Shown here: positions 20,044 through 45,287 of the stretch, piece after piece
How positions within the stretch are numbered: position 1 is the stretch's first letter
Layout: each line of letters starts with the position of its first letter
IMG/VR virus record: IMGVR_UViG_3300009161_000003
Coordinates: 1 to 64,000 of that record
DNA length: 64,000 nt
DNA from: a virus
Strand: one strand, 5' to 3'
The notes under the pieces: generated by a model
What the model saw: the letters and a program-made list of their open reading frames with translations, nothing else
Databases searched by the model: none
What the model was told of the DNA's origin: nothing
Position numbers and translations under genes: made by a program

Positions 20044-20312
20044 AGATAGTGAGATCTTGTTCTTCAACCACAAAAAAGGGTAAGCCTTGTTCTATATTTG
20101 TGGAAGAGTGGAGAACTGTAGATAAGTGTCATGTTCATGATCCTAATGGCGTATTTAGACAACAGTTAAAGCATGGCAGACCAACTAAGATTAAGAAAAC
20201 AAAAATTAAAACTATTCAACAATGTCAGCATAAGTGGTATATGAGAGATCCAGGCATTCAATGTAGTAAATGTTTTGTTCTTTGGGATAAGTCTGATAGA
20301 CTTAATGCATGA
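20031..20312 (+). CDS. Basic zinc-finger protein
   Basis: 93 residues from GTG. The N-terminal motif C-S-S-TTKKGKPC...CHVHDPNG is the C-x-G-x-T-KKGxPC...CxxH finger found in many phage proteins; a second site (CQHKWYMRDPGIQCSKC) lies near the C-terminus. Lysine-rich linker. Nucleic-acid binding likely. Confidence 0.65.
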   Translation: MSILKIVRSCSSTTKKGKPCSIFVEEWRTVDKCHVHDPNGVFRQQLKHGRPTKIKKTKIKTIQQCQHKWYMRDPGIQCSKCFVLWDKSDRLNA

Positions 20313-20995
20313 ATGTTCCAAAAGTAATTAGACAACCATTGGCATACAATGAAGAAAAAATGTATAAAGTCTATGAACTTGAAGAAGCACATGCTATATC
20401 TAAAGATCAATTAAATAATGCAAAACTATTTAGTTCAAGAAAAGATTACGTAGAAACTTTAAGTAAAAATATATCATATTTAGAGGTAGGGGTCCTTTGG
20501 GGTAATTCCGCTAAAATGATTATAGACACAACAAACGCTAAAAATGCTGATCTTTTAGACTATTATAATGGTGCACCAGGTATTCTACAGGATAGAGTCA
20601 GTGCTCCAAAAAATAGTTCCATAACACATGAACAGCATATAAAAAATAAATTTGCTTATCATCCCAATGTAAATACCATAAAAGGAGATGCAATAGAAAT
20701 ATTATCTACTTTAGATAAAAAATATGATTTTATTTTTTTAGACATAGACAGAGATAGGCTTTTAGCAAGAAAACTTTTATTAGATTCTTCTAAGTTAACT
20801 AATGTTGGTGGAGTTATAGGATTAACCTCTTATCTAAATTATGACAGTGTTTTATATGAAGGCCCTGTAGGAATATATCAAAGCGTAAATGAATTTTTAT
20901 ATTATAACCAAAATTGGTCTGTTGATGGATTGCTGCTAAACACTCTTGGATTTCATGATATATACATCAAGAAGAATAAGGATAGTAACCAATAG
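20309..20995 (+). CDS. Class I SAM-dependent methyltransferase
   Basis: 228 residues. YLEVGVLWGNSAKMI (residues 57-71) is the SAM-binding glycine motif, and GDAIEILS followed by DFIFLDIDRDR supplies the acidic loop and motif IV of the methyltransferase-24 type. This subfamily often methylates sugars or small molecules. It opens the enzyme-rich cassette at 20-29.5 kb. ATG overlaps the preceding stop by 4 nt. Substrate unknown. Confidence 0.75.
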   Translation: MNVPKVIRQPLAYNEEKMYKVYELEEAHAISKDQLNNAKLFSSRKDYVETLSKNISYLEVGVLWGNSAKMIIDTTNAKNADLLDYYNGAPGILQDRVSAPKNSSITHEQHIKNKFAYHPNVNTIKGDAIEILSTLDKKYDFIFLDIDRDRLLARKLLLDSSKLTNVGGVIGLTSYLNYDSVLYEGPVGIYQSVNEFLYYNQNWSVDGLLLNTLGFHDIYIKKNKDSNQ

Positions 20996-21010
20996 TGCCC
21001 TTTTAGGGCA
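20996..21010 (+). terminator. Short hairpin after the methyltransferase
   Basis: TGCCCT-TTT-AGGGCA stem-loop one base after the stop; the tail is A-rich rather than T-rich, so it is weak on this strand. Confidence 0.45.
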
Positions 21011-21053
21011 TAAAAAGGTTTGTTACTTCTATTTCGCGCCGAACCTTAAAGAC

Positions 21054-21082
21054 TTGACAATTTCCGTGTTTTAGCATATACT
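21054..21082 (+). promoter_or_regulatory. Promoter with early-type leader
   Basis: TTGACA (21054-21059), 17 bp, TATACT (21077-21082), leader TTATAACAACTAACAAAGG. Confidence 0.75.
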
Positions 21083-21109
21083 GGTTATAACAACTAACAA
21101 AGGATAATA

Positions 21110-21274
21110 ATGAACATAACACACGAAGTACTCAGTTTTGTAAAACAACGTCAACATGGACATGGTTTTGGAATTAACAGCCAGGAAATTGAAGACTTTT
21201 TAAAAGAAATTGATCCAGACAACTATAACTCTTTTGAATTTGATTACGCTTTAGTAAGTGAAGCACAGGTTTAA
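21110..21274 (+). CDS. 54-residue small protein
   Basis: MNITHEVLSFVKQRQHGHGF... short helical protein with HGHGF. SD AAAGGA upstream; next ATG follows its stop directly. Unknown. Confidence 0.55.
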   Translation: MNITHEVLSFVKQRQHGHGFGINSQEIEDFLKEIDPDNYNSFEFDYALVSEAQV

Positions 21275-21484
21275 ATGTTTATATATACTATGTTAATGTC
21301 GTTAATATTTCTTAGTACCCCGTCAGTTTATGACGATCCATACTACTCAGATGTTAATTACTGTGATATTTATGCTTACTGTGATAACCCAGATCTTGAT
21401 ACAAGCCTAGATGATGAGGTTATCTCAGATGAGGCTGATTGGGACTTAGAGGAGTTTTTAATTAGCATAGGTTGGTATGAGTAA
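21275..21484 (+). CDS. Acidic protein with hydrophobic N-terminus
   Basis: 69 residues. MFIYTMLMSLIFLSTPSVYD looks like a signal peptide or anchor; the rest is dominated by D, E and Y. Unknown; TAATG coupling to the next gene. Confidence 0.5.
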   Translation: MFIYTMLMSLIFLSTPSVYDDPYYSDVNYCDIYAYCDNPDLDTSLDDEVISDEADWDLEEFLISIGWYE

Positions 21485-21696
21485 TGACACACGCTGAATT
21501 ACTTGCAAATATTAACAGCCCACAGTTCCAGAATAGTAGAACTTTAGAGACTCCATACCTTGCCCTTCGTGCAGTAGTGGAGTTACACAAAGGACAGTCA
21601 GATCTGGTCTCAAACCTCATTGGGAAGGTCTGTCACCCTTGTAGAACAAACTATCCATGCAAAACCATCAAGGCTATTGAAAAAGAGTTAAAATGA
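21484..21696 (+). CDS. Conserved actinophage Cys-pair protein
   Basis: 70 residues ending CHPCRTNYPCKTIKAIEKEL. The pattern 'C-x-x-C-x(4)-YPC-x-T-I-x-AI' is characteristic of a frequent actinobacteriophage small protein family. Single metal site probable. Unknown function. Confidence 0.65.
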   Translation: MTHAELLANINSPQFQNSRTLETPYLALRAVVELHKGQSDLVSNLIGKVCHPCRTNYPCKTIKAIEKELK

Positions 21697-21818
21697 ACGG
21701 TATTCCATGCAAACTCTGTAATGAACTCAATGCCACACAAGCAGTAATTGATGGCATCTATTGCCTTAATTGTTATATAGGGATTACGAATGGGTCTTTA
21801 AATTCCCAGGCAAACTAG
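21693..21818 (+). CDS. 41-residue zinc microprotein
   Basis: MNGIPCKLCNELNATQAVID with a second pair CLNC: CxxC...CxxC zinc knuckle. ATGA overlap with the previous gene. Its 3' end contains the promoter element of the halogenase gene. Confidence 0.55.
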   Translation: MNGIPCKLCNELNATQAVIDGIYCLNCYIGITNGSLNSQAN

Positions 21819-21835
21819 GGTATACTTATTTAAAT

Positions 21836-23428
21836 ATGAAAACAGATAAAATAGTTATTGTTGGTGGAGGCTCTGCAGGTTGGATGACTGCTACAACTTT
21901 AATTAAAGAATTTCCCACAAAAGAAATTGTACTAATCGAGTCTAAAAATGTTCCAACTGTTGGTGTTGGAGAGTCAACTATTGTCGGTATTAGAAAATGG
22001 GCGCAGTTTATAGGATTGAAAGAAGAGTCTTTCTTTAAAGAAACAGACGCTACTATTAAAATGAGCATTAAGTTTACAGATTTTTATAAAGAAGACTCAG
22101 GCAGTTTTCATTACCCTTTTGGTGATCCAGTAGTAGATGGCAATAGAAATCCTTTTGCTGATTGGCATTTAAAGAAGTATTTAAACCCAGAAACTCCAAT
22201 AGAAGATTTTGTAAATTGTTTGTTTCCATCTGCTGCCTTATTTAATAATGATAAATATTCTGAAAACTCATATAACGAATTTCATAATTTTAACCCTAAG
22301 AACGACATTGCCTACCATTTTGATTCCACTAAATTTGCTATATGGCTTAGAGATACATACTGTAAGCCTGCTGGCGTAACTCATATAATTTCAACTGTAG
22401 TATCTGTTAATAAAGACAAAGATGGAATTAAAAATTTAGTTTTAGAAGATGGAAGTTTAATTGAAGCAGACTTATTTATTGACTGTACTGGTTTTAAAAG
22501 TTTATTATTGTCAGAGTCATTGTTAGAGCCTTTTATATCATACTCTGATATGTTGCCAAACAATCGTGCATGGGCTACTAGGGTTCCATATATTAATGAT
22601 GACATAGAAATTCAAGGGTACACAAATTGCACTGCAATCTCTAACGGTTGGTGTTGGAATATCCCATTGTTCTCAAGACTAGGGGCTGGCTATGTATATT
22701 CAGATAAATATATAACTCCAGAAGATGCCAAAGAAGAATTTAAACAGTATTTGATGTCTAACAAAATGACTATACCTCGTTCTAAAGAAGATGTTGACAA
22801 ATTAGAATTTAAAGATATTAAAATGAGAGTTGGTATTCATGAAAGGACATTTGTTAAAAATGTAGTAGCAATAGGTTTATCTGCTGGTTTTATAGAACCT
22901 TTAGAGAGCAATGGCCTTTTTACTGTTCATGAATTTTTATTTAAACTTATAGATATTCTTCAAAGAGGTAGTATTTCTCAGTTTGATAGAGATATGTACA
23001 ATGTTTCAGTAAAAGATTTGTTTGATGGATTTACCAAATTTGTTGCTTTACATTACGCACTTTCTCACAGAGAGGATAGTGAGTATTGGAAAGAAATAAA
23101 CAATAAAATTTTTAAAGATAGAAATGGCGACCCATACAATCAATATCATGGTCGCACTGATTTATTTTATAATATAATGTGGAGATATATGGAAAACAAA
23201 GGGCATCCATTGGGCGCTGCAGGCATTACATATATTTCAACTGGAATGAATCTTAACATGATAAATGATTATAGGTTTATGGATATTAAAAATAGAATTA
23301 ATCCTACAATAGTAGAAGAAATAAACAAAATTATTTTTTTATGGGAAGAAAGAAAATTAAAATGGAATATGGCTTCAAACAACTCCAAAACAATGAAGCA
23401 ATACTTGTTAGAAAAGTATCATCAATAA
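21836..23428 (+). CDS. Flavin-dependent tryptophan halogenase family
   Basis: 530 residues from ATG 21836; a TATACT box lies 9 nt upstream. Residues 6-16 hold the FAD motif IVGGGSAGW. NGWCWNIPLF is the GWxWxIP motif diagnostic of flavin-dependent halogenases, Lys75 (in ATIKMSIKF) matches the lysine that forms the halogenating intermediate, and EPLESNGL is the conserved E-S pair. Predicted to use FADH2, O2 and halide to halogenate an electron-rich substrate; the family includes a cyanophage halogenase. No flavin reductase is visible nearby. Substrate unknown. TAATG coupling to the membrane protein downstream. Confidence 0.88.
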   Translation: MKTDKIVIVGGGSAGWMTATTLIKEFPTKEIVLIESKNVPTVGVGESTIVGIRKWAQFIGLKEESFFKETDATIKMSIKFTDFYKEDSGSFHYPFGDPVVDGNRNPFADWHLKKYLNPETPIEDFVNCLFPSAALFNNDKYSENSYNEFHNFNPKNDIAYHFDSTKFAIWLRDTYCKPAGVTHIISTVVSVNKDKDGIKNLVLEDGSLIEADLFIDCTGFKSLLLSESLLEPFISYSDMLPNNRAWATRVPYINDDIEIQGYTNCTAISNGWCWNIPLFSRLGAGYVYSDKYITPEDAKEEFKQYLMSNKMTIPRSKEDVDKLEFKDIKMRVGIHERTFVKNVVAIGLSAGFIEPLESNGLFTVHEFLFKLIDILQRGSISQFDRDMYNVSVKDLFDGFTKFVALHYALSHREDSEYWKEINNKIFKDRNGDPYNQYHGRTDLFYNIMWRYMENKGHPLGAAGITYISTGMNLNMINDYRFMDIKNRINPTIVEEINKIIFLWEERKLKWNMASNNSKTMKQYLLEKYHQ

Positions 23429-23700
23429 TGCAATGGGTTTTAGCAATTAAAACTATGTTTTATAAAGAGTATTGGAATAAAGCAAATACTATTGAGTTTT
23501 TTGCGTTTATGACTAAGTTAATGATTATATTTCCAGGTCTAATATTTGAAAAACAATTTTGGTGGCTATATGTCTTTGCTTTATTATCTAGCCTATCTTT
23601 AATCTGGTCATCAACAGTAAAAACTCTGCCTACTATAATTTGGTTTAATATAGGATGGTCTATTCTTGCTATTACTGCAATATTAAAATATTGGCTTTAA
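23428..23700 (+). CDS. Two-helix membrane protein
   Basis: 90 residues, MQWVLAIKTMFYKEYWNKAN, with hydrophobic helices around residues 23-42 and 48-62, and a third hydrophobic stretch at 68-88. Start overlaps the halogenase stop (TAATG), so it is coupled to it. May anchor or transport a product; unknown. Confidence 0.65.
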   Translation: MQWVLAIKTMFYKEYWNKANTIEFFAFMTKLMIIFPGLIFEKQFWWLYVFALLSSLSLIWSSTVKTLPTIIWFNIGWSILAITAILKYWL

Positions 23701-23755
23701 TTAGCATACATTTATATAAATTCCCTGGAAAATTAGGCTATGCTATAATAGATTT

Positions 23756-24370
23756 ATGGCATATGTAGTTAACGGAAAACCAGTTGGAAATGATCCACCT
23801 AGTGTAGAAAGAAATCATTCATATATGAAGTTTTTTCATGAGGTTGGTAATTCTGTTGAAAACATTAAGATTATTCCTAATTTTTTAACAAAAGAAGAAA
23901 TTGAATACCTTATGTCTGATATAAATACAAGGCGACATATTAGTTTTGTATCTCAAAAAGATAATGAAGGTAATGCCTTAACTTATATTTATCAGTATAA
24001 TGGACTAAAAGACATTCATAAAGTAATAGAAAGATGCAAAGATCAAATATGTAAATCTTATGGAATTGAAAAAGAAAAGATAAGAGCAAAAGAACAACAT
24101 CTTAATGTGGTTAAATGGGTAGAGGGCACTTATTTAGATTTACATGTTGATGACCTTGGATATGTTACAGACAATCATTTGCCAGTACTTATTTATTTAA
24201 ATGATGATTATGAGGGTGGAGAGATTAAGTTTGAGACTCATAATTTATCTTTAAAGCCAAATGTTGGAGATTTTATTGTTTTTCCAGGAAATTTACATTA
24301 CCCACATGAGGTAACAAAAGTTTTATCTGGAACTAGATACACATTGCCTATTTGGTTTACGATAGTTTAA
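23756..24370 (+). CDS. Fe(II)/2-oxoglutarate-dependent oxygenase
   Basis: 204 residues. H130-x-D132 (LHVDD) and H184 (YPHEV) are the iron ligands, R194 (GTRYTLPIWF) would hold 2-oxoglutarate, and LNDDYEGGEI plus FPGN complete the double-stranded beta-helix signature of prolyl-4-hydroxylase-like enzymes. Predicted hydroxylase; substrate unknown. TATAAT (23744-23749) lies 6 nt before ATG. The 25 bp upstream resemble those before the halogenase gene. Confidence 0.85.
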   Translation: MAYVVNGKPVGNDPPSVERNHSYMKFFHEVGNSVENIKIIPNFLTKEEIEYLMSDINTRRHISFVSQKDNEGNALTYIYQYNGLKDIHKVIERCKDQICKSYGIEKEKIRAKEQHLNVVKWVEGTYLDLHVDDLGYVTDNHLPVLIYLNDDYEGGEIKFETHNLSLKPNVGDFIVFPGNLHYPHEVTKVLSGTRYTLPIWFTIV

Positions 24371-24372
24371 AG

Positions 24373-24624
24373 ATGACAGATAGTAATAAAAAAAGAAAAC
24401 TTTTGGATGGATCTGAAGTAAATGATTACGATCATCCTATTGATCTTATATTACATACAAAGGCTCCTGCAAAATGGAAATTGATTGATCTTGAAACTGG
24501 TCAAGAATATTTAGGTTCAGATATATCTCATGAAACATTTGGAGAAGTTTTACGTAACAAAGTAGCAAAATCTAAAATAGGATCTTGGTTTAAAACAAAA
24601 GGAAGAGTAATAAAAAATGGATAA
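24373..24624 (+). CDS. Small conserved phage protein (KWKLID type)
   Basis: 83 residues. AKWKLIDLETGQEYLGS is a short beta motif found in small proteins of T4-like and cyanophage-type genomes. Basic C-terminus. Lies 2 nt after the oxygenase stop and overlaps the next gene by 8 nt. Unknown. Confidence 0.6.
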   Translation: MTDSNKKRKLLDGSEVNDYDHPIDLILHTKAPAKWKLIDLETGQEYLGSDISHETFGEVLRNKVAKSKIGSWFKTKGRVIKNG

Positions 24625-26044
24625 TACTAACAAACCTATAACATTTCATTGGATGTGGAGAAGGCACTGGCAGATAAATGACAGTATTGAAAACCTAGAC
24701 CTTAATGGAATTATGAAAATGGCAAAAGAGTTAGATGGTGCAGGGGTAAAATCTGTTTTACTTCCGTATGGTCCAGGAGGTATAGATTTTTCTTTAGTTA
24801 TTTCAGACGCATTAAAAACAACAGATCAATTAATTATGACAATTGCGTTGCCTGCATACGGAACAAGTCCAGATTACGCTGCCAAAATTTGTGAAACACT
24901 AAATCGTTTTGCTCCTGGAAGAATTGGAGTAAATCTTGTTGCTGGAAGATGGGGGGATGAAGGCAATGGCCCTTCAGAAAAATTGGTATTAGACCACTAT
25001 ATGCATGATTCGTCTCTCATTGACACTCTCGAAAAAAGAGTAGCAATATCTGCAATTTGGATGGATAAGGTTATAGATTTAATGAAAACTCATCAACATA
25101 AAACTCACATGGCAGTTGTTGGATCTTCAGATACAACAATTGGAATAGCAAACAAACATTGCGAATATATATATGTAGATGATAATTTAATATATAAAGA
25201 ACAATTTAAAAAAATTGATCTTAATCGTGTAAAACCAATACTTATTATTGATCCACTTATTATTAACAATACAGAAGAAGAACAAAATGTAAAATATGAT
25301 AAAAATGCGCCATTAAGAAAGCAGCATCATCATGTTAAAGGCCCATTGGTGGATGTTGTTAAACAAATAAAGCAATTATCAAAACAATTTGGTATATATG
25401 ATTTTATGATCCATACTGACCAAGCAGATATTAGCAAATTATTAGAATTAGTAAAAGATTTTAACAGCATTGACGTTCCTGAGCAAAAACAAATTGTAAT
25501 ATCTGAACTAACAAAGGAAAACTTTACAAATATTGGAAGTAATCCTAAAAACATAAAAATATTTAACAATTACCTTAGCAAAGATGAGTGTAAAAATATT
25601 ATAGGATTAATTAATAATACAGAGACAAGTAATAATCGTCCTCTTCAACCAGACAACAATGGCAATCCTACTCTGTCTTTATTGTATTACGACTCACTTA
25701 ATTATTCAGAAAAATATATTCCTCAAATTCAGGATATGGTAGAAAAAGAATATGGAGTAAAATTAAAACCAAGAAATTCTCGTTTTGCTCAATGGGTGCA
25801 CAGTCAGAGTCCTTTAATACCAATAGATGATTTGGGTCATAAAGATTCAAACCATTTAGCAGGTTGGGTATATTTGAATGACGATTATATAGGTGGAGAA
25901 CTATCTTTTATTCATCAAGGTGTGTCTTTTAAACCTAGGGCTGGTGATTTAGTTTTATTCCCTGGAAATATTCACTATTGGTACCATGTTGCTCCTGCAA
26001 ATGGATCAAGGTATATTATGCCACTTTGGTTTGATTTTGTTTAA
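24617..26044 (+). CDS. Luciferase-like monooxygenase fused to a 2OG-oxygenase domain
   Basis: 475 residues in two parts. Residues 1-280 have the TIM-barrel pattern of luciferase-like flavin monooxygenases (SsuD-like): IALPAYGTSPDYAAKICETL then APGRIGVNLVAG. Residues 310-475 are a 2OG-oxygenase fold closely like 23756-24370 (LNDDYIGGE, FPGN, H457, R465). The first iron ligand position, His in the neighbour (LHVDDLG), is Pro402 here (IPIDDLG), so the domain may be inactive, may use H408, or may be altered in chemistry. This fusion is unusual. Overlaps the previous gene by 8 nt. Confidence 0.78.
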   Translation: MDNTNKPITFHWMWRRHWQINDSIENLDLNGIMKMAKELDGAGVKSVLLPYGPGGIDFSLVISDALKTTDQLIMTIALPAYGTSPDYAAKICETLNRFAPGRIGVNLVAGRWGDEGNGPSEKLVLDHYMHDSSLIDTLEKRVAISAIWMDKVIDLMKTHQHKTHMAVVGSSDTTIGIANKHCEYIYVDDNLIYKEQFKKIDLNRVKPILIIDPLIINNTEEEQNVKYDKNAPLRKQHHHVKGPLVDVVKQIKQLSKQFGIYDFMIHTDQADISKLLELVKDFNSIDVPEQKQIVISELTKENFTNIGSNPKNIKIFNNYLSKDECKNIIGLINNTETSNNRPLQPDNNGNPTLSLLYYDSLNYSEKYIPQIQDMVEKEYGVKLKPRNSRFAQWVHSQSPLIPIDDLGHKDSNHLAGWVYLNDDYIGGELSFIHQGVSFKPRAGDLVLFPGNIHYWYHVAPANGSRYIMPLWFDFV

Positions 26045-26059
26045 TGGTAGAATAGTTAT

Positions 26060-27058
26060 ATGACTTATTTCACAAGGGATATTTTAGATTTTTACAGATT
26101 TGATAAAGAAAAAAACTACATATATTTAAAAAAATATTTTTCAAACAGTGATACTCTTGGACTGCACAATCCTAATTCCACAATTGTTTTTGATAGTGTT
26201 AATGTTTTTGATAAGGCTAACTGTAAAACTGTTGATGATGATAATACATACGAAATTAATAAAAATGGTTTTCGTGGAAAAGTTGATGAAAATTCAGATG
26301 TCATAGCATCTGGTTGTTCTATAACTTTTGGCATTGGAGTTCCAGAGGAGGCAAGATGGACAAATATTTTAAGCAACCAAATTAATAAAAACATCATTAA
26401 TTTAGGAGTTGAAGGAGCATCTGTAAAAAATGTTTGTACCAATATCATTCAATACTGTATGAATAATAAAATGCCAAAAGAAATTTTTTGTTTATTTCCA
26501 GATTTTTTTAGAAGTATGGTTGTAGTAGACGAAGAATTTTATAAATCAGGATTAAGCAAGAGGTATTGGGATGAATCAGATAAGTTAATACTAACCTTTT
26601 GCAATCCAAATGTTAGGAAACATAGTAAAAATCGTGTATTTATGGAAATAAAAGACAAAAATAATATAGAAGATTCTGTTTCTCCACACCAGTTAATACT
26701 AGATTCTGTAAATTTTATTTATATTTTAGAATCATTCTGTTTAACAAATGGCATAAAATTATATTGGACAACATGGGATGATGCTAGTTTTGCAATTTTG
26801 CAAGAAATGTCCAAAATTAAAGATTTTAAATTAAAAAATTTTTCACAGTCTATGCCAAGTCATTCTTGTGATGGTCTTTTACATGATCATTTTGGGTTTA
26901 AAAATCATCCACAATGGGAAAGAGGGTCTGATTATTCAATCATAAATAATAAAAAAACAAAAGTTTATGCTCATCCAGGCATTCATTATCATACTCATAT
27001 TGCAAGTTTGTTTTATAAAATGCGTGAGCAACAAAATCATGATATGATAGGTATATGA
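26060..27058 (+). CDS. SGNH-hydrolase-like protein
   Basis: 332 residues. IASGCSITFGIGVPEEARW (residues 82-100) fits block I of the SGNH/GDSL superfamily with the Ser in G-C-S; a C-terminal HPGIHYH could supply the Asp/His pair region. A paralogue lies at 34232-35020. SGNH proteins are esterases or acyltransferases, often acting on cell-wall or polysaccharide acyl groups. TAGAAT (26048-26053) lies 6 nt before ATG. Activity unproven. Confidence 0.6.
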   Translation: MTYFTRDILDFYRFDKEKNYIYLKKYFSNSDTLGLHNPNSTIVFDSVNVFDKANCKTVDDDNTYEINKNGFRGKVDENSDVIASGCSITFGIGVPEEARWTNILSNQINKNIINLGVEGASVKNVCTNIIQYCMNNKMPKEIFCLFPDFFRSMVVVDEEFYKSGLSKRYWDESDKLILTFCNPNVRKHSKNRVFMEIKDKNNIEDSVSPHQLILDSVNFIYILESFCLTNGIKLYWTTWDDASFAILQEMSKIKDFKLKNFSQSMPSHSCDGLLHDHFGFKNHPQWERGSDYSIINNKKTKVYAHPGIHYHTHIASLFYKMREQQNHDMIGI

Positions 27059-27729
27059 TGATTGATCACTCTAAAGATGAAATCTATTTAACAAATGTGG
27101 CTAAATTAGGAAGTTCTGCAAAAAACGTATATGTTATAGATAATTTTTTACCTAATGAAGAGTATCAAACATTATCTAATTTTGCAAATAATTCTGATCA
27201 AATCCCTTGGATTAAAGAACCTTGGACTACAGACAGAACTGCTCCAAATTCAATTCCGGAAGATTACGTTAAAATTATAAAAAAAATATATCCACTTGCT
27301 AGATTAAATTGTATGGATTATTATGATGTAAAAGTAAATGATTATCCTCCAGAAATTAGAGACGTTCTTTTAAGAAAGTGGAGTCCTGGAAGTAAAATGG
27401 AACCTCATATAGACACAGAGGCTCAAAAAAATCTACATATTGTAGGTATGTATTACCTTAATGATAATTATGATGGAGGAGAAATATTTTTTCCAGATTA
27501 TAATTTAAAAATTAAACCTAAATCAAATAGTTTACTTATGTTTCCTGGTAACGAAAACTATGTTCACGGAGTACATGAAGTTTCAAAAGGATTTAGGTAT
27601 ACTTACCAGGTAAGTTTTGTTTTTAAAGGCTCTACATTTGTAGGAGAAACAAAACATAATCTAGCGTATTATAAAAAGATCAATTATGATCCAAAGAATT
27701 TTATGAATTATGATCCAAAATCATTCTAA
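27055..27729 (+). CDS. Fe(II)/2OG oxygenase, tandem copy A
   Basis: 224 residues. PHIDTEAQ gives HxD, YVHGVHEV the distal His, and GFRYTYQVSF the 2OG-binding Arg; LNDNYDGGEIFF is the family core. TATGAT (27043-27048) lies 6 nt before ATG. First of three adjacent paralogues that overlap each other; the N-terminal DEIYLTNVAKLG is repeated in copy B. Confidence 0.82.
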   Translation: MMIDHSKDEIYLTNVAKLGSSAKNVYVIDNFLPNEEYQTLSNFANNSDQIPWIKEPWTTDRTAPNSIPEDYVKIIKKIYPLARLNCMDYYDVKVNDYPPEIRDVLLRKWSPGSKMEPHIDTEAQKNLHIVGMYYLNDNYDGGEIFFPDYNLKIKPKSNSLLMFPGNENYVHGVHEVSKGFRYTYQVSFVFKGSTFVGETKHNLAYYKKINYDPKNFMNYDPKSF

Positions 27730-28321
27730 AAAAGATGAAATCTATTTAGCAAATGTTGCAAAAATAGGAAACTCTATAAATAACATACAATATACTGAAA
27801 ATGTGTTATCTCAAGATGAGCATAAACAAATACTTGATTTTGTAAAAACCCGTGAATCTTGGACAATTCAACCTTGGGATAGTAAAGTTATCATATTTCA
27901 TGAGATGCCTAAAGAAATTCTTAATTCATTAAATAAAGTTTTTACGCTTGCTTATGAAAAATCTAAAAATTTTTATGATATAAAAATTAATTTTTTTGAA
28001 GATTTGTCATTAAATTTGCTTAAATTTGAAAAAGATTTTTCTTTAAAACAACATATAGATACTGAGTCAAGTGAATCAAATCATATTGCATCAGTATATT
28101 ATATTAATGATGATTACACAGGTGGAGAAATTAATTTTTCAAATTATAAATTAAAGATTAAACCTAAACCAAATAGTTTAATTGTTTTTCCTGGAAATGA
28201 AAACTATTTGCACGAAGTAGTTGAAATTACAAGTGGAGAACGATATAGTTCATCTTTGTGGTTTCAGTATACTGGGTCTACTTTTAATAAGAAAAGCGAG
28301 TGGTATGATGATCCAATCTAA
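27710..28321 (+). CDS. Fe(II)/2OG oxygenase, tandem copy B
   Basis: 203 residues. HIDTESSE (HxD), LHEVVEI (distal His) and GERYSSSLWF (Arg) are intact. Overlaps copy A by 20 nt and copy C by 17 nt. N-terminal DEIYLANVAKIGNSINNIQ is shared with A and C, so the three arose by tandem duplication. Confidence 0.82.
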   Translation: MIQNHSKKDEIYLANVAKIGNSINNIQYTENVLSQDEHKQILDFVKTRESWTIQPWDSKVIIFHEMPKEILNSLNKVFTLAYEKSKNFYDIKINFFEDLSLNLLKFEKDFSLKQHIDTESSESNHIASVYYINDDYTGGEINFSNYKLKIKPKPNSLIVFPGNENYLHEVVEITSGERYSSSLWFQYTGSTFNKKSEWYDDPI

Positions 28322-28865
28322 TTTAGGAAATTCTATAAATAATATACAAGTTACAGAAAATGTTTTGTCTAAAGAAGAACACAAACAACTGCTTGATTAT
28401 ACAATAAGTGTTGATTCTTGGCAAACTCAACCTTGGGGAGTTAAGTTTCTTTTATCAAAAGAAATGCCAGAAGAAATTGTTGATTTGTTAGAAAAAATTT
28501 TTAGAACCGCTTATGAAAAATGTACAAATTTTTATAATGTAAAACTTTATGTTTTTGAAAAAGGAACAGTTCCTTTAATTAAATTTGAAAAAGGATATAA
28601 GATGCATGAGCATGCGGATACTGCAGGAGATTTTGCAGTAATATATTATATCAATGATGACTATGAAGGAGGAGAAATTAATTTTATGGATCATAATTTG
28701 AAGATTAAACCAAAGGCTAACAGTTTTATCACATTTCCTAGTAATGCAGACTATTGGCATGAAGTACTTGAAAATACTGTAAAAGAAAGATATTCTGCTA
28801 CTCTCTGGTTTAAGTATGATGGCTCTGATATGTCAAGGCCAGCATTAGGTTTAAGTCGTAAGTGA
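28305..28865 (+). CDS. Fe(II)/2OG oxygenase, tandem copy C
   Basis: 186 residues from ATGATG. HEHADTAG gives HxD, YWHEVLE the distal His, KERYSATLWF the Arg. The start lies inside copy B; LGNSINNIQVTENVLSKEEH is nearly identical to B. The N-terminus is shorter than in A and B. Confidence 0.8.
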   Translation: MMIQSNLGNSINNIQVTENVLSKEEHKQLLDYTISVDSWQTQPWGVKFLLSKEMPEEIVDLLEKIFRTAYEKCTNFYNVKLYVFEKGTVPLIKFEKGYKMHEHADTAGDFAVIYYINDDYEGGEINFMDHNLKIKPKANSFITFPSNADYWHEVLENTVKERYSATLWFKYDGSDMSRPALGLSRK

Positions 28866-29506
28866 TTACAAAAGAAGATTTAGTAGAGGCCACAAAAGAA
28901 AGACGTCTTCATGTAGTAAAAAATTTTTATAATAAATTTCCTTTATGGTTAGATATAGATAATTTATATGATTTAATAAAAGATACAAAACCAGAAGATA
29001 TAGATTATAATTCTTTTAACACAATGATAATTATGGATAAATTTAAAATTTTAAATTTTTATAATGATGTAGTAGAAATTTTTTCTAAAATTCATAATGG
29101 GCATATACAGTTTATAATGTTAATAATTAGTTTTATTAATAGAAACAATAACGTTATTAATGATTCTGATTGTTTAAGACTTACTAAAAAATATTATTTA
29201 GACAATCCAAAAAAAATTCCAAAAGAACTTACCATTAATAAATATAGTGTTGATGGTTGGCCAAATAGTTTTTGGGACCCTCCAATTCATTTTGATGCAG
29301 AAGATAGAATTTTTATTCAAGGCTTAGGACAAACTTTATGGAAAATATTTGACAATAACAATGTTTTAACTGATGAAATTATACTTTATTCTGGTGATTT
29401 AGCATATATTCCTGCAAAATTACAGCATAGTGTTGAGTCTTTATGCGCTAGACATTCAGTAAGTATTGCTTTGTCTGAAGACAATGAAATTAACCATATG
29501 CTATAA
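28862..29506 (+). CDS. JmjC/cupin-type oxygenase-like protein
   Basis: 214 residues from GTG (GTGA overlap). IHFDAEDRIFIQGLGQTLWK matches the HxD plus 'Q-x-x-G-x-K-x-W' block of JmjC/Cupin_4 ribosomal-oxygenase-like proteins, and SGDLAYIPAKLQHSVES supplies the distal His. The N-terminal half is divergent. Predicted protein hydroxylase; target unknown. End of the oxygenase cassette. Confidence 0.7.
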   Translation: MITKEDLVEATKERRLHVVKNFYNKFPLWLDIDNLYDLIKDTKPEDIDYNSFNTMIIMDKFKILNFYNDVVEIFSKIHNGHIQFIMLIISFINRNNNVINDSDCLRLTKKYYLDNPKKIPKELTINKYSVDGWPNSFWDPPIHFDAEDRIFIQGLGQTLWKIFDNNNVLTDEIILYSGDLAYIPAKLQHSVESLCARHSVSIALSEDNEINHML

Positions 29507-32805: not shown

Positions 32806-34242
32806 ATGATTATTCTTGGAATTAATGGAACCTCTCATGACGCATCTATATCTTTAATAGAGGATGGAAACATACTTTTTGCTGGGCATTCTGAAAGATA
32901 TAGTAAGGTAAAAAATGATTGGTACAACTGCCAAGAATTGTTTGACGATGCATTTCAATATGGATATCCAGATCAAATAGCGTACTATGAAAAACCTTGG
33001 TTAAAAAAATCAAGACTATTATTTGGCGGTTCTTCAGACTGGAAACCAAAATTTAAAACTAAATTTGATACATCAAAAATAAAAATAACAAATTTTAATC
33101 ACCACTACTCACATGCAGCAGCAGGATATTTTACAAGTGAATTTGATGATGCAGTTATTGTGGTTTTAGATTCAGTAGGAGAATGGACAACCTCGTCAAT
33201 TTATACTGGAGAAAATAATAAAATTAATTTATTAGAAAAAACAGACTATCCATTTAGTTTTGGATTATTTTATTCTGCCTTTACTCAATTGGTTGGCTTA
33301 AAACCAAACGAAGAAGAGTATATTATGATGGGTATGGCAGGGTATGGAGATTGGAAAAAATACTATAAAGAAGTTATAGAATATTTTCCAGATATAAATA
33401 CACAAAAATATAATTTTCATAAAGGTATACATGATTGGCCTTATAATATTTTTGCACAAGACAAGTTTGACATAGCAGCAGCAGTTCAAAAAGTCTATGA
33501 AATTAGACTGCTTGATTTTATGTTAAAGGCTAAACGTATTTCAGGAAAAAACAACTTAGTATTTATGGGTGGATGTGCTTTGAATTGTTCTGCTAATACA
33601 CAGTTGTGGGAAGTGTTTGATAATGTTTGGATTATGCCTAATCCAGGAGATGCTGGAAGTTCTCTTGGTGCAGCAGCAGCATTATATGGAAAACATATTA
33701 ATTGGAATGGTCCGTACTTAGGACATGATTTATGTGGAACATATCCCGTTGATCAAATTTTAAAACAATTAAAAGAAAATAAAATTGCAGCCGTTGCTTC
33801 AGGAAGAGCCGAGTTCGGTCCAAGAGCACTTGGAAATAGAAGTATTTTGGCAGACCCAAGAGACCCAGAGATTAAAAACAAGGTAAATAAAATAAAACAA
33901 CGAGAAGAATTTAGACCATTTGCTCCAGTAGTATTAGAACACTTGGCAGATAAATGGTTTGAAATGCCAACGACATCTATTCCATATATGCAGTATGCGG
34001 TTAAATGTAAAAGACCAAAGGATATTCCTTCTGTAGTTCATGTTGACGGAACTTCTAGAGTTCAAACAGTAAATGAAAAACAGCATCCAGGATTATACAG
34101 AGTATTAAATAAATTTTATTTAGAAACTGGAGTACCAATTCTTCTTAATACAAGTCTAAACATAAAAGGGCAACCACTTTTAAATGATGAAACAGATATA
34201 GTTAATTGGGAAAAAAAATATGATAGTAGTATTATAAGATAG
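32806..34242 (+). CDS. Carbamoyltransferase (NodU/CmcH family)
   Basis: 478 residues. The N-terminal domain starts ILGINGTSHDASISLIEDG and has the metal/adenylate motif NHHYSHAAAGY (H99, H100, H103); the C-terminal YrdC-like part has GRAEFGPRALGNRSILADPR. The family transfers a carbamoyl group from carbamoyl phosphate to a hydroxyl or amine on sugars and antibiotics; cyanophages carry homologues. Next to SGNH and oxygenase genes it could modify a glycan or small molecule. The C-terminus (DSSIIR) appears slightly short and ends over the convergent gene. Confidence 0.9.
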   Translation: MIILGINGTSHDASISLIEDGNILFAGHSERYSKVKNDWYNCQELFDDAFQYGYPDQIAYYEKPWLKKSRLLFGGSSDWKPKFKTKFDTSKIKITNFNHHYSHAAAGYFTSEFDDAVIVVLDSVGEWTTSSIYTGENNKINLLEKTDYPFSFGLFYSAFTQLVGLKPNEEEYIMMGMAGYGDWKKYYKEVIEYFPDINTQKYNFHKGIHDWPYNIFAQDKFDIAAAVQKVYEIRLLDFMLKAKRISGKNNLVFMGGCALNCSANTQLWEVFDNVWIMPNPGDAGSSLGAAAALYGKHINWNGPYLGHDLCGTYPVDQILKQLKENKIAAVASGRAEFGPRALGNRSILADPRDPEIKNKVNKIKQREEFRPFAPVVLEHLADKWFEMPTTSIPYMQYAVKCKRPKDIPSVVHVDGTSRVQTVNEKQHPGLYRVLNKFYLETGVPILLNTSLNIKGQPLLNDETDIVNWEKKYDSSIIR

Positions 34243-35020
34243 TTAAAGAATCTTCATATTGTTTTTTAAAATGTCTATACCATCCATATTGTGATTCTAT
34301 TCCTGGATGACGATAAATGTCAGTGTCATCATCATCTGCTTTCCATAACCTAGGATGATTTTTATTTAATTCTATATAGTTAAATGTTTCTAACAAAAAA
34401 TCTTTTGAAATTAAAGGTGAAAAAATTGTATCAAAATTATTAAAAATACCATTTTTTTGAAAATCAGAAGACATAAAATTTTTGTTTAAATTTTTGTTAG
34501 AATTTTTTTTATTTTCATAATCTTTCCAAAATGTTGATATTAATTTTATTTTATTAGAATAACAATATTCTTCAAGCATAAGGTAGTTATAAAAAAACAT
34601 TTCTTCGCAAACATCATCTTTATAAAAAACATCTTCTCTATCTATGGGTGGCAACAACAAAAAAATAATTTTTGGATTTCCAAATAATTTAAAATATTTA
34701 AATAAATTGTGAATTATTTTTGCAACAGAATGACCAGAAATTGCTAAATTAAAATATCCAGAATGTGTATTATTTTTATTTAGTTCTTCATATAACATTT
34801 TAGACCAAACTTCAGATTCCTCTAATCCACTGCCAGAGGTCATAGAACAACCAGAAAATAAAATATGTTTTTTATCATGCTTATTGGTAAAATCATCACA
34901 TCGATATTCATAGTTATTTTTTCTATAAAAAACATTGTTTTTTGTTTGTCCTTGTTTATCTAAGTATGGACCCCAAGTAACTTTGTCAAGATTAAAATAA
35001 TCATTAGTATTATTAATCAT
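34232..35020 (-). CDS. SGNH-hydrolase-like protein, second copy
   Basis: 262 residues. ILFSGCSMTSGSGLEESEVW matches block I of 26060-27058, and RHPGIESQYGWYRHF the C-terminal His region. Overlaps the convergent carbamoyltransferase by 11 nt. Predicted esterase or acyltransferase fold; unproven. Confidence 0.6.
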   Translation of the reverse strand: MINNTNDYFNLDKVTWGPYLDKQGQTKNNVFYRKNNYEYRCDDFTNKHDKKHILFSGCSMTSGSGLEESEVWSKMLYEELNKNNTHSGYFNLAISGHSVAKIIHNLFKYFKLFGNPKIIFLLLPPIDREDVFYKDDVCEEMFFYNYLMLEEYCYSNKIKLISTFWKDYENKKNSNKNLNKNFMSSDFQKNGIFNNFDTIFSPLISKDFLLETFNYIELNKNHPRLWKADDDDTDIYRHPGIESQYGWYRHFKKQYEDSLTIL

Positions 35021-35034
35021 TGTTTTAGTTAAGG

Positions 35035-35466
35035 TTAATGCTTTGTAAATCTAAAAGCAGAACCATCCCATAAAGACTTTCCAAATGCAGGTTGTGCTTC
35101 ATCTTGTAAACTAAAAGCACTTCCCTCCCAAATTTTTTCTTTTTTATTTTTTTCACGATTAACTATGCCACGACTCCAACTAAACCCAGCATCTCCGCCC
35201 CATGCATCCCACATAATTCTTCCATTTGATGGGAACTCTGGACCAGAGTAAAACCCTTTACCTTTTTTATCTACTTCGTGACGGGAAAAGAAAGAATACA
35301 TTCTTTTAACGGTATCAAGCGACATTGCTGAACCATTAACAATATCTGTTGCTCTGCCCCAACCAACAGGAGTTCCTGCACCAGTTGCTTTTCCATCTTC
35401 TTTCCATTTAAGTGCACGTCTTGCTGCAGCCTTCATTCCAGAAGTTGGGCTATATGTGTCAGCCAT
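35035..35466 (-). CDS. Conserved phage protein with WDGSAF repeats
   Basis: 143 residues. The N-terminal 90 residues match a widespread phage family: VGWGRATDIVNGSAMS, TVKRMYSFFSRHEVDKKGKG and RIMWDAWGGDAGFSW. It often lies near portal and protease genes. The C-terminus adds IWEGSAFSL and LWDGSAFRF, tandem copies of a motif that also ends the adjacent gene. Function not established. Confidence 0.7.
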   Translation of the reverse strand: MADTYSPTSGMKAAARRALKWKEDGKATGAGTPVGWGRATDIVNGSAMSLDTVKRMYSFFSRHEVDKKGKGFYSGPEFPSNGRIMWDAWGGDAGFSWSRGIVNREKNKKEKIWEGSAFSLQDEAQPAFGKSLWDGSAFRFTKH

Positions 35467-36041
35467 TACTTATTAAAGCCTCTTGTATCAAACATACTTC
35501 CATCCCAAACTGATTTTGTTGCAACTGAGTTTGATTTGTATGTTCCACCACGACGCTTGTATTCTTGAACTACCCAAGAATTTGCTACTGCACTTGGATA
35601 TACGTCAAACTTATCTTTTGCTGCTTGAACAACTCTAGCATAAAGTTTTGGGTTTGATGGATCAGATCCACCACTTCTTGGTTTAATAAAATCAGCATAG
35701 TTTGGTTTCTTTGCCTTATCAATTGATTCGTAATTTTCTTCCATTTTAAACTCCTTCATAGTCATATTATTAAATTTTCCATCAAGATCTGGAATAGTTA
35801 GTGGATCAATTTTAGTTACTAAAGAACCTTTTACTCCAACTAAACGTTCAGTTTCATCCCAGCCATAACCTTCTTCAAATTCAAGAATACGTACTAAAAC
35901 TGCTGGTTCTTCTGTTGAAGCCATTAAAGAATAATCAGAGTATTGTATTCCAAACATACCATCTGTCATAACATGCTGAACAATTCCAACGTAGGTTTCA
36001 TCGTCACCCTGTGCAAGAACAAAATCACCTTCAGATATCAT
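35466..36041 (-). CDS. Conserved phage protein, SH3-like start
   Basis: 191 residues. GDFVLAQGDDETYVGIVQHV is an SH3-like barrel start common in phage genes near head morphogenesis; the C-terminal half (DPSNPKLYARVVQAAKDKFD, then YPSAVANSWVVQEYKRRGG) is a second conserved phage domain. It ends SVWDGSMFDTRGFNK, with the WDGSxF motif of the neighbour. TATAAT (36048-36053) lies 6 nt before ATG. TAATG overlap with 35035-35466. Confidence 0.65.
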   Translation of the reverse strand: MISEGDFVLAQGDDETYVGIVQHVMTDGMFGIQYSDYSLMASTEEPAVLVRILEFEEGYGWDETERLVGVKGSLVTKIDPLTIPDLDGKFNNMTMKEFKMEENYESIDKAKKPNYADFIKPRSGGSDPSNPKLYARVVQAAKDKFDVYPSAVANSWVVQEYKRRGGTYKSNSVATKSVWDGSMFDTRGFNK

Positions 36042-36095
36042 GTTTCCATTATAACAGATATTCTGCTATAATTGTAAAACCAACGATTGGAAACA
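36042..36095. promoter_or_regulatory. Compact divergent promoter
   Basis: Minus TATAAT (36053-36048) and plus TATAAT (36067-36072) lie 13 bp apart, driving 36041 (leaderless) and 36096 (leader of about 18 nt). Confidence 0.6.
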
Positions 36096-37052
36096 ATGGC
36101 TCATATTGTATTTTTAGGTAACTTTGAAGTGTCATATAGTAGTGAGAATCATCATGCTAAGTCTTTAGAGTCTCTTGGCCATACCGTTTGCAAATTGCAA
36201 GAAAGAACAATTAAGGATAGTTTTGTTCTTGAACAAGCAATGAATAGTGATCTCTTTATATGGGTGCATACACACGGCTGGGTGACTCCTGGAAGACTTG
36301 GAATGGGCTTTGTACTGGAAGAGTTAAAGAAGGCCAACATCCCCACAATGACATACCATTTAGATCTATGGTTTGGCCTAGAAAGACAGAAAGATTTAGA
36401 AGAAGATGACTTCTATAAAACAATTGGGCACTTCTTTGCAACAGATAAGTTAATGACTGATTGGTTTAATAAGAACACTAATGTTAAGGGGCACTTCCTA
36501 CCTGCTGGGGTATATGATAAAGAGTGTTACATCCATGAAGATTATAATAAAGATGAGTTTGAGTATGATGTAATATTTGTTGGTAGTAAGAGGTATCATC
36601 ATGAACATAAATACCGTGCAGAATTAATAGATTTTTTAAGACGAATCTATGGTAAAAGATTTTTACACGTTGGTGGAGATGGAGACACTGGAACTGTACG
36701 TGGAAACGATTTAAATAGAATTTATGCAAAAAGTAAAGTAGCAATTGGTGATAGTCTTAACATTGATTTTAATTATCCATATTATACAAGTGATAGACTA
36801 TTTGAAAGTACTGGTCGTGGTGGATTCACTATCTACCCTCGCATTAAAGGCCTTGAAGAATATTTTATTGATGGAGAAGAAATTGTTTTTTATGAGCACG
36901 GGAACCTTGAAGATCTAAAATCAAAGATAGATCAATATCTTGATGATAATTCAACAAGGGAACTAATTAGATTAAATGGTCATGAAAGAACTAAACAAGA
37001 ACATACATATATTCACAGATGGGCAACTATTATGAAGGAGTTGGGATTATGA
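36096..37052 (+). CDS. Glycosyltransferase (GT-B, family 1-like)
   Basis: 318 residues from ATG 36096; an in-frame TTG 9 bases earlier is less likely. AHIVFLGNFEVSYSSENHHA opens a Rossmann domain; the donor-binding C-terminal signature is STGRGGFTIYPRIKGLEEYF followed by the E-E-I-VFYE. Predicted to transfer sugar from an activated donor. First of a five-gene unit (36096-40394) with ATGA-type overlaps. Confidence 0.78.
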   Translation: MAHIVFLGNFEVSYSSENHHAKSLESLGHTVCKLQERTIKDSFVLEQAMNSDLFIWVHTHGWVTPGRLGMGFVLEELKKANIPTMTYHLDLWFGLERQKDLEEDDFYKTIGHFFATDKLMTDWFNKNTNVKGHFLPAGVYDKECYIHEDYNKDEFEYDVIFVGSKRYHHEHKYRAELIDFLRRIYGKRFLHVGGDGDTGTVRGNDLNRIYAKSKVAIGDSLNIDFNYPYYTSDRLFESTGRGGFTIYPRIKGLEEYFIDGEEIVFYEHGNLEDLKSKIDQYLDDNSTRELIRLNGHERTKQEHTYIHRWATIMKELGL

Positions 37053-37762
37053 CTGAAATGATTAAAGCCGTTATTAACGGAGAGTTTGAAATTACTTTAC
37101 CAAAACATCGTGCAGATAGACCAGATTGGTATCAACCTCATGGCTGGGAGAAACCAAGACTAAAGCATATGTCAGAAAATATTGGATCTGGAGATGTTGT
37201 ATATTATGTTGGTGCAGAAGAAGGAGAGATGCCTGCTCTATGTCAGATGTGGGGTGCTGAGGTAGTTTTGTTTGAACCTAATCCAAAGGTTTGGTCGCAT
37301 TTCCCATTACTGTGGAGTGCAAATAATTTAGAAATGCCACTTGCTTGCCTTCCTGGATTTGCGTCAGACAAAGATAATAAACTTGCAAGAATATATTATG
37401 GAGAATTTCCACCAGAAGCAGATGCACCAATTGAAGCAGCACATGGATTTAAAGAACTTCAATATGAAGCAGATAAATATGGTCAAACAAAAATTGACAC
37501 TCTTGTTTATGAAAAAGGATTAAAGCCACCTACTGCAATTTCATTAGATGTTGAGGGTAGCGAATGGCGTGTACTTGGTGGTGCAGAAAAAGTTATGAGA
37601 GAGTTTAAACCAAAAATCTGGCTATCTGGTCATCCAGAATTTATGATGATGTATTGGAATGAATATCTTTACGATCTAAGACAATTTATTAAAGGCATTG
37701 GATATAAAGAAACTTTCCTTGACTATCAACATGAGGTACATTTATTCTATGAAGCAATCTAA
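37049..37762 (+). CDS. FkbM-family methyltransferase
   Basis: 237 residues. VVYYVGAEEGEMPALCQMWG is the SAM motif, VVLFEPNPK the second, and SLDVEGSEWRVLGGAE the FkbM hallmark. Predicted O-methylation of a sugar. ATGA overlap with the upstream glycosyltransferase. Confidence 0.85.
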   Translation: MTEMIKAVINGEFEITLPKHRADRPDWYQPHGWEKPRLKHMSENIGSGDVVYYVGAEEGEMPALCQMWGAEVVLFEPNPKVWSHFPLLWSANNLEMPLACLPGFASDKDNKLARIYYGEFPPEADAPIEAAHGFKELQYEADKYGQTKIDTLVYEKGLKPPTAISLDVEGSEWRVLGGAEKVMREFKPKIWLSGHPEFMMMYWNEYLYDLRQFIKGIGYKETFLDYQHEVHLFYEAI

Positions 37763-38603
37763 CTGTTATCTATACTCTTTTAATGAAGGAGACTGTGCTG
37801 CTGATAAGTGGGACTATGGACTTCTTAAAGAAATATTTGATAAATATAATATAGAACAAATTAAGGTTAATGCTTTGCCAATAGAAGACAGAGCATTTGT
37901 TGTAATTCCTGGACCACAAAATATAGGACATGAAAAACATATATCAAAAGAATTAAAAAATATATCTAGATTAGTTTTATTTATAACAGGGGATGAAGAA
38001 GGAGTCTTTGATATAGATAGAATAGAACATTCTAATGCAGAGATTTGGATTCAATACCCTCACAAAAAACATGAAAAATATAACAAATTTCCAATTGGTG
38101 TACCGCAACATTTAAAAAACAATTTGCCTAATTATAAGACTAAAACATATGACGTATTTTTTGCTGGGCAAATCACACACCAAAGAAGAGAACAATTGGC
38201 AGGGGCAATAGCATTAGTCAACAATGCCCTTTATAAGCCCACAGATGGCTTTGCTAGAGGAGATAAGCCAATTCATTACTACGACAACCTAGCCAGTTCA
38301 AGGATTGCTGCCTGCCCTGCAGGGGCTGTAGTTATTGACTCATTTAGATTGTTTGAAGCAATAGAGATGATGTCCTTGCCAATAGCAGACCTTATAGATT
38401 CAAGTGGCTTGGAGGATGATTTTTATCAACGTCTTTTTAATGAGGCAGTTCCATTTTATAAAATAAAAAATTGGAACGACTTGCCTGTTACTGTCTCAGG
38501 TTTGTTAGAGGGTTATCCAAACAACATGCATACTGTGGTATGCTGGTGGATCAAATACAAAAGAGATTTTGGGATTAAATTAATGAGGCAAATCAATGCA
38601 TAA
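37749..38603 (+). CDS. Exostosin-like glycosyltransferase
   Basis: 284 residues from MKQSNCYLYSFNEGDCAADK. VFFAGQITHQRREQLAGAI and SFRLFEAIEMMSLPI are the phosphate-binding and acidic segments of exostosin/GT47-like transferases. Overlaps both neighbours by 8-14 nt. Substrate unknown. Confidence 0.65.
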   Translation: MKQSNCYLYSFNEGDCAADKWDYGLLKEIFDKYNIEQIKVNALPIEDRAFVVIPGPQNIGHEKHISKELKNISRLVLFITGDEEGVFDIDRIEHSNAEIWIQYPHKKHEKYNKFPIGVPQHLKNNLPNYKTKTYDVFFAGQITHQRREQLAGAIALVNNALYKPTDGFARGDKPIHYYDNLASSRIAACPAGAVVIDSFRLFEAIEMMSLPIADLIDSSGLEDDFYQRLFNEAVPFYKIKNWNDLPVTVSGLLEGYPNNMHTVVCWWIKYKRDFGIKLMRQINA

Positions 38604-44261: not shown

Positions 44262-44837
44262 TTACTCCCTGTAGTCAATGTTAAGAATACATCTAATTTG
44301 TGATTCTTTTGGTGATGTAGATGAATGGTAATATCTACCGTCAAATTTTATTGCAGTACCCATTTTGGGTTCTACAGAATGTAAAACTGGTAAATCTTTA
44401 GGATTGGAAATATCATCTCCAAATTTTTTATCAAAGATGACAGTGTTTCCATCTGCAGAATTAAAGTAATACAGGAACACATTATGGGGAATTGCATTAT
44501 CAACATGTGGATAATTGTAGTTATCATAATCAGACTTAGTTAAGATATTTATCCTAGCCCTAATTACGGTTTTAGGTTTGATATTATGCTTGTCACAAAA
44601 TTTATTAAATACATATTGATATTCATTATTATTTAAATCTTGCACAACTTGAAATGTATTATAGGAATCAGATGTTGCTAGTACTAATGACTTTGGCAGT
44701 TTTTCTCTTTGCCCTGGAATATTCATTATTTCTAGGGCTCTCCAAACTTTCCAGTTTGGTTGATAGTTTGAAAAAATTTGATTAGCAAAATCAACCTGTT
44801 CTTCGTATGTTAAAAAATTGTCATCTTGAATGAACAT
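44262..44837 (-). CDS. Fe(II)/2OG oxygenase
   Basis: 191 residues. YPHVDNAIPH gives HxD, YYHSSTSP the distal His and QIRCILNIDY the Arg; NVFLYYFNSADGNTVIF is the core. It belongs to the T4/cyanophage-type 2OG family distinct from the 27-kb copies. Overlaps the next gene as TAATG-like (shared base 44837). Confidence 0.75.
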   Translation of the reverse strand: MFIQDDNFLTYEEQVDFANQIFSNYQPNWKVWRALEIMNIPGQREKLPKSLVLATSDSYNTFQVVQDLNNNEYQYVFNKFCDKHNIKPKTVIRARINILTKSDYDNYNYPHVDNAIPHNVFLYYFNSADGNTVIFDKKFGDDISNPKDLPVLHSVEPKMGTAIKFDGRYYHSSTSPKESQIRCILNIDYRE

Positions 44838-45091: not shown

Positions 45092-45092
45092 A

Positions 45093-45278: not shown

Positions 45279-45287
45279 AATTTAATC

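Follow-up and report, generated by a model that had tools for sequence, protein, structure and literature searches.

For what purpose would a phage carry a halogenase, a small membrane protein and a row of oxygenases side by side on one strand? This question is raised by positions 20309–29506 of a 64,000-nucleotide window (positions 1 to 64,000 of IMG/VR virus record IMGVR_UViG_3300009161_000003, which comprises 112,922 bases), where an interpretation made without database searches (hereafter the sequence-only reading) had recognised an enzyme cassette that could make a halogenated metabolite or tailor a protein or glycan. Judged from gene content and conservation, the cassette reads as a swappable modification toolkit, not as one fixed pathway, and of the two earlier guesses protein or glycan tailoring appears to fit better than a dedicated halogenated metabolite. 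We tentatively favour the view that a freshwater actinophage here carries a tailoring locus of composite, modular build, with modification of a surface macromolecule as its likeliest role.

The conserved part of the cassette consists of three plus-strand genes. The first, OG1 (23756..24370), encodes a 204-aa prolyl 4-hydroxylase (P4H)-like 2-oxoglutarate (2OG)-Fe(II) oxygenase (PF13640, E=8e-12), while the second, X90 (24352..24624), encodes a conserved 90-aa protein for which the ATG at 24373 is a possible alternative start. The third (24617..26044) encodes the fusion LLM-psi2OG, in which a luciferase-like domain with an SsuD/MsuD fold (residues ~1–290) precedes a pseudo-2OG domain (~296–475). 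A scan with the fusion returned 134 viral stretches, 80 of which were retained, and the order 2OG–X90–fusion was present in 80/80 of these related freshwater viral contigs (the counts are of contigs, not independent lineages, and many are short fragments). A sulfotransferase-like gene (PF13469, E=4e-8) accompanied the core in 69 of the 80 loci, usually after the fusion, and an SGNH-like gene, often in multiple copies, in 61. The clade of the window (L006, L020, L021, L024 and L025) is without the sulfotransferase, which is also absent from L018, L019, L022 and a few short contigs; it has a methyltransferase-like gene (MT) and extra 2OG genes instead, and most of its members carry the halogenase pair.

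That pair consists of the halogenase gene HAL1 (21836..23428, plus strand) and the adjoining membrane protein gene TM (23428..23700, plus strand), and appears to be a separate mobile unit inserted between direct repeats 5′ of OG1. L024 carries the same cassette without HAL1 and TM, with 95–98% identity on the left side and 88% on the right, and at its empty site the equivalent of window positions 21484–21824 joins directly to that of 23721 onward. In the window, the pair is flanked by a promoter-like 28-bp repeat on the left (21800..21827, plus strand, AAATTCCCAGGCAAACTAGGGTATACTT) and a second copy just 5′ of OG1 on the right (23718..23745, plus strand, AAATTCCCTGGAAAATTAGGCTATGCTA); the copies are 22/28 identical and are the only two in the record, while the L024 empty site holds a single one. 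A search for Trp_halogenase found none in ten long core-bearing records (36–119 kb, possibly incomplete) but detected the family in eight HAL1-bearing records used for comparison. The empty site, its single repeat copy and the absence of the halogenase from the ten core records are why we regard the pair as mobile. On this comparison, the genes are not inherited together as one pathway, with the core in 80/80 loci and the halogenase in 0/10 long core-bearing records.

The enzyme itself looks intact. HAL1 (530 aa; PF04820, Trp_halogenase, E=7e-102) probably starts at 21836, and not at 21770 as initially assigned, and its gene is under purifying selection (ratio of nonsynonymous to synonymous substitution rates, dN/dS, 0.08–0.14). 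Across 29/29 aligned sequences, the glycines of the flavin adenine dinucleotide (FAD)-binding GGGxxG motif (G10, G11, G12 and G15), the catalytic K75, the GWxWNIP motif (G271, W272, W274, I276 and P277) and E357 are invariant, in full agreement with the flavin-dependent halogenase proposed from GWxWxIP and the lysine. The nearest solved structure is that of VirX1 from cyanophage Syn10 (PDB 6qgm, E=6e-91), with which K75, GWxWNIP and E357 align and which shares the FAD, Lys, GWxWNIP and EPLES motifs; the alignment stops at residue 422, however, and HAL1 differs in being coupled to a membrane-protein family. VirX1, presented by Gkotsi et al. in 2019, is reportedly a viral halogenase acting on diverse small molecules. 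Alignments of HAL1 to the tryptophan halogenases RebH and PrnA stop at 441 and 409, and the Trp-binding residues of the latter enzymes presumably lie C-terminal to these ends.

The kinship with VirX1 bears on a different explanation, in which the joint product of the genes is a halogenated small molecule with an effect on the host or on competitors. The tight packing of genes from 21836 to 29506 (intergenic gaps of −20 to +55 nt) would suit such a dedicated pathway, and so would the gene order HAL–TM–2OG–X90, which the sequence-only reading had suggested looking for in other metagenomic phages and which indeed recurs in five more contigs (L020, L021, L087, L088 and L089), followed by the fusion wherever these extend far enough. 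With this recurrence and the intact halogenase residues, neither of the two findings that the sequence-only reading had named as refuting it occurred. However, close relatives show the core and the halogenase cleanly separated, the cassette genes showed no scaffold-building enzyme (nonribosomal peptide synthetase, polyketide synthase, terpene enzyme or ligase), and the tryptophan halogenase alignments end before the Trp-binding segment. Chiefly because of the clean separation, we consider a single halometabolite pathway unlikely.

The link between halogenase and TM is closer. TM is a 90-aa protein with three hydrophobic stretches, the start ATG of which overlaps the HAL1 stop by one base (TAATG), which bears out the coupling proposed earlier and places the TM start probably at 23428. 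In a survey of 80 loci fetched from the TM protein alone, a halogenase was located within 3 kb in 61, and in 59 of those within 300 bp; since the query TM itself adjoined a halogenase, some ascertainment bias is possible in these counts. The halogenase was of the HAL1 type in 8 of the 61 loci and of a second, diverged type (HAL2) in the other 53, so TM travels with both halogenase subfamilies. Among TM loci outside this clade (n=55), a HAL gene lay upstream in 51, at a median gap of 15 nt. Thirteen other TM loci, from sister phages, had no halogenase and placed TM between the primase gene and an SSB-like gene. The present phage carries HAL2 at this same junction, outside the window (G000 70006-71977; L003:6006-7977, minus strand), where it overlaps an AhpD/CMD-like gene between the SSB-like and primase genes, and in L143 HAL1, HAL2, TM and the AhpD-like gene are grouped together. 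No match to TM was found among the isolated phages searched. A stand-alone luciferase-like (SsuD-type) protein is encoded at L308:5854-6735, ~3 kb from a HAL2–TM pair, and such a gene occurs in 21/55 HAL2–TM loci.

Within the core, the fusion is the most unusual component. The sequence-only reading had correctly paired a luciferase-like with a 2OG domain, as matches to Bac_luciferase (E=6e-4) and 2OG-FeII_Oxy_3 (E=6e-6) confirm, but the iron ligands are absent from the 2OG domain. This domain aligns to OG1 with 36% identity over 179 aa, with HVD of OG1 replaced by PID and PHEV by WYHV. Among 36 relatives of the fusion, the HxD histidine is lost in 36/36 (replaced by P, S, A or R) and the distal histidine in 35/36 (Tyr in 35/36, His once), while the arginine of the domain is retained in all. 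OG1, in contrast, keeps HxD and the distal His in ≥95%, and the Arg in ≥80%, of 70 aligned sequences, and the HxD...H set of P4H-like oxygenases (PF13640) is likewise kept in the stand-alone proteins OGa, OGb and OGc. In a tree, the pseudo-2OG domain groups with OG1 and not with OGa–c (moderate support, 82/83, on a long branch). The 2OG domain of the fusion is a pseudo-oxygenase, conserved across these relatives and akin to intact OG1 two genes upstream. Furthermore, dN/dS was 0.11 for X90 and 0.13 for the fusion, which indicates strong purifying selection, against 0.23–0.33 in OG1 and SGNH, whose dS is similar. The position of the fusion among the most constrained genes of the region suggests that there is a reason for retaining the dead domain. 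Recent horizontal transfer, considered as a source of the high fusion and X90 identity, was ruled out by a dS of ~0.8–1, as in neighbouring genes.

For the N-terminal part of the fusion, Foldseek matched MsuD (7k64, E=4.5e-14), and MsuD, SsuD and SfnG are the nearest folds; TM-scores by target for the luciferase-like TIM barrel were 0.59–0.65 (model confidence, pLDDT, 78). SsuD and MsuD share with the fusion the TIM-barrel fold and the SPxxAAxxxxTL and GRxxxNLVxG segments. In combination with NCBIfam best matches to alkanesulfonate monooxygenase and the phosphate-binding PstS gene immediately downstream of the cassette, this could mean that the SsuD-like domain frees sulfite from organosulfonates and thereby feeds the infection. 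However, those NCBIfam matches reach only 35 bits against a family cut-off of 510, and the fusion is shorter than SsuD and MsuD, with Gly55 at the position of SsuD Cys54 and no alignable C-terminal half, where the other catalytic residues lie. F420-dependent folds also score higher by target-normalised TM-score, and the cassette contains neither a transporter nor a flavin reductase, making nutrient scavenging a rather improbable role. No cellular relative of the fusion appeared in a genome scan, nor in a search, run without a positive control, of 151 genomes from the order of Candidatus (Ca.) Planktophila.

X90, between OG1 and the fusion, had been overlooked in the gene list of the sequence-only reading, the other open frames of which were found as described, with families largely as named. 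Over 59 aa, its sequence is 41% identical to the C-terminal end of a nucleotidyltransferase-kinase-like protein of T4-like phages (~555 aa), encoded beside phosphoheptose isomerase (a sugar isomerase), thymidylate kinase and thymidylate synthase-type genes, the last likely specifying a deoxycytidine monophosphate hydroxymethylase. This resemblance would fit a cassette that decorates phage DNA bases. However, no thymidylate synthase/hydroxymethylase family gene was found in this record or in eight relatives, which makes the DNA-base route unlikely, and the stand-alone 2OG proteins resemble P4H folds, with only weak Tet_JBP matches. Taken together, DNA hypermodification is the explanation to which we give very little credence.

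The surroundings of HAL1 in other phages point in another direction. Around HAL1 (52 dereplicated loci), 2OG genes, which belong to several subfamilies, are ~4× denser within 1 kb than at 7–9 kb, and a tail-fibre-type gene lies within 3 kb in 23/52. A profile from the 2OG genes of this phage only had given no general HAL1–2OG association, a result that was overturned by broader 2OG families; since the association appeared with these, the earlier lack must have been a sensitivity artefact. A comparable arrangement is found in the T4-like cyanophage Synechococcus phage Sf-CH11, whose halogenase is 45% identical to HAL1, is flanked by several P4H/2OG genes and follows soon after a 10-kb structural gene; its host is cyanobacterial, however, and no luciferase-like fusion, X90 or TM is annotated there. 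Tryptophan halogenase and 2OG oxygenase genes of T4-like cyanophages have been surveyed before (PMC3037559, PMC9602691), with halogenase-like genes in 20/153 cyanophages (PMC10452541) and 24 2OG genes in one cyanophage (PMC9602691).

The location of HAL1 relatives beside fibre and 2OG genes indicates virion or surface tailoring. In its narrowest form, this would mean that the phage's own tail fibres receive hydroxyl groups from the P4H-like enzymes and halogen from the halogenase, an example being the collagen-like protein encoded amid the tail genes at 5881-6645 (minus strand; PF01391, E=3e-9), a possible P4H-like enzyme substrate that also scores above the family cut-off in 5/10 core-bearing records. 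The halogenase superfamily furthermore includes QhpG, a related flavoprotein that modifies peptidyl-Trp (PMC7876137). However, the similarity between HAL1 and QhpG is at superfamily level (34 bits against a cut-off of 240), phage cargo genes are often near tail genes for other reasons, and the cassette of this phage is not beside its tail genes. We therefore see tailoring of the virion protein as a possible but doubtful special case. No literature on collagen-like fibres together with phage P4H was found in open-access text.

Two further families were observed near HAL1. An unnamed family (K..PEWYK) without a Pfam match has two copies (49425-50159 and L005:3279-3995, both minus strand) and homologues within 3 kb of HAL1 in 13/52 other phage loci, and is a candidate for another halogenase partner. 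Often found within ~1 kb of HAL1 (L093, L099, L106, L117 and others) is a short, fibre-associated family rich in Trp (FDPNWMDSD...DIWEVI), which is conceivable as a halogenation substrate.

The remaining cassette genes are also on the plus strand and include accessory oxygenases. Downstream of the fusion follow an SGNH-like protein of 332 aa (26060..27058) with a GCSxTFG block that is invariant in 32 aligned sequences and without a clear DxxH Asp, and the 2OG-Fe(II) oxygenases OGa (27055..27729, HxD at 118), OGb (27710..28321, HxD at 115) and OGc (28311..28865, 184-aa form, HxD at 101). Each of OG1, OGa, OGb and OGc matches 2OG-FeII_Oxy_3 above cut-off (E 4e-10 to 4e-14), and OGb–OGc homologues occur as an adjacent pair on the opposite strand in several relatives. 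The last gene encodes the 214-aa JmjC/cupin protein JMJ (28862..29506; PF08007, HFD...H), which matches JmjC_2 (E=8e-7, 29.1 bits against a cut-off of 22) with conserved metal ligands in HFD and QHSV. Like the JmjC_2 protein hydroxylases, JMJ keeps HxD...H, but it is short and matches in the C-terminal part only; it is missing from L020 and L024 and lies on the opposite strand in other phages. The five stand-alone 2OG/JmjC oxygenases of the sequence-only reading hence all retain their iron ligands. Its nearly gapless stretch holds from 21836 to 29506, but not for the accessory upstream neighbour MT (20309..20995, class I methyltransferase-like, 228 aa), which is separated from the halogenase by 840 nt with only a 70-aa open reading frame in the spacer. 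MT homologues occur in 10/80 core loci, often elsewhere and in differing positions.

That the source virus is an actinophage follows from its WhiB gene (E=7e-14), a hallmark of actinophages (PMC10202952), from a major capsid protein nearest to those of Streptomyces phages of 120–134 kb (42–44%), and from PstS best matches, though weak (35–36%), in freshwater Actinomycetota and Ca. Planktophila. Elsewhere in the record, we observed a surface-glycan-type block (32806-41067) with a NodU-like carbamoyltransferase (PF16861, E=2.5e-54), a second SGNH-like gene, glycosyltransferases and an FkbM methyltransferase. Further 2OG-oxygenase-like genes at 44262-52364 (minus strand), two matching PF13640 and the rest recognised by eye, mean that the phage may hold ~10 in total. 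Other observations were a secreted 866-aa repeat protein resembling a host surface protein (55906-58506, minus strand) and a protein in which a long GAF GAF repeat precedes a Hint/intein-like segment (L005:4011-5267, minus strand).

How could such a surface-tailoring cassette work? We propose a first unit in which OG1 (a predicted active hydroxylase) and X90 are accompanied by a TIM barrel of the flavin monooxygenase type to which a dead OG1-like domain is fused. The dead domain might dock or dimerise with OG1, so that flavin enzyme and hydroxylase would share one substrate. New hydroxyl groups could then be capped with sulfate or acyl groups in relatives, via the sulfotransferase or an SGNH acyl-esterase/transferase. 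In a second unit, halogenase and TM would halogenate an aromatic group located at the membrane or close to it. As target we consider a surface macromolecule likeliest, whether a phage virion protein or fibre or the host envelope, and the presence of both P4H-type 2OG folds and the collagen-like protein in the same phage is compatible with a protein target.

Several observations weigh against this proposal. No substrate of the cassette enzymes was identified in this analysis, the cassette lies ~13 kb from the tail genes, and no sulfotransferase match was found anywhere in this record, which leaves the phage without this hydroxyl-capping enzyme. The genes labelled methyltransferase and SGNH by the sequence-only reading are present, but their assignments are weak: MT matches Methyltransf_24 with 23.6 bits, under the 26.3 cut-off, and SGNH has a sub-threshold Lipase_GDSL_3 match and weak similarity to GDSL esterase folds (TM-score 0.26–0.36 by query). 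In the sister phage L308, moreover, X90 occurs without OG1 or the fusion while a luciferase-like protein is unfused and elsewhere, and the core is therefore not strictly obligate; since X90 stands alone there at apparently the same syntenic place, its association with the enzymes may in part reflect position.

The component enzymes are of known kinds, whereas the fusion, the operon and the halogenase–TM pair look undescribed; no published descriptions of the three were found in open-access text, with most subscription journals outside the scope of the search. In its boldest and, in our estimate, improbable form, the cassette would encode a new composite oxygenase, in which a dead 2OG domain tethers a flavin (flavin mononucleotide or F420) TIM barrel to a live 2OG hydroxylase and which acts with a membrane-anchored halogenase to decorate a surface protein or glycan of phage or host. 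If true, this would be an exchangeable halogen, sulfate and acyl decoration system in the arms race between lake phages and their hosts. Halogenases of viruses and 2OG oxygenases of phages both occur in abundance. TM offers a partner handle for two halogenase subfamilies, and the strongly conserved core operon of lake actinophages, in which a live oxygenase accompanies a flavin enzyme that bears a dead oxygenase domain, offers another. Some natural variants carry the halogenase pair and others lack it, which allows infected cells or virions of the two kinds to be compared directly, and if a surface molecule were found to be halogenated or sulfated, this would reveal the purpose of these widespread genes.

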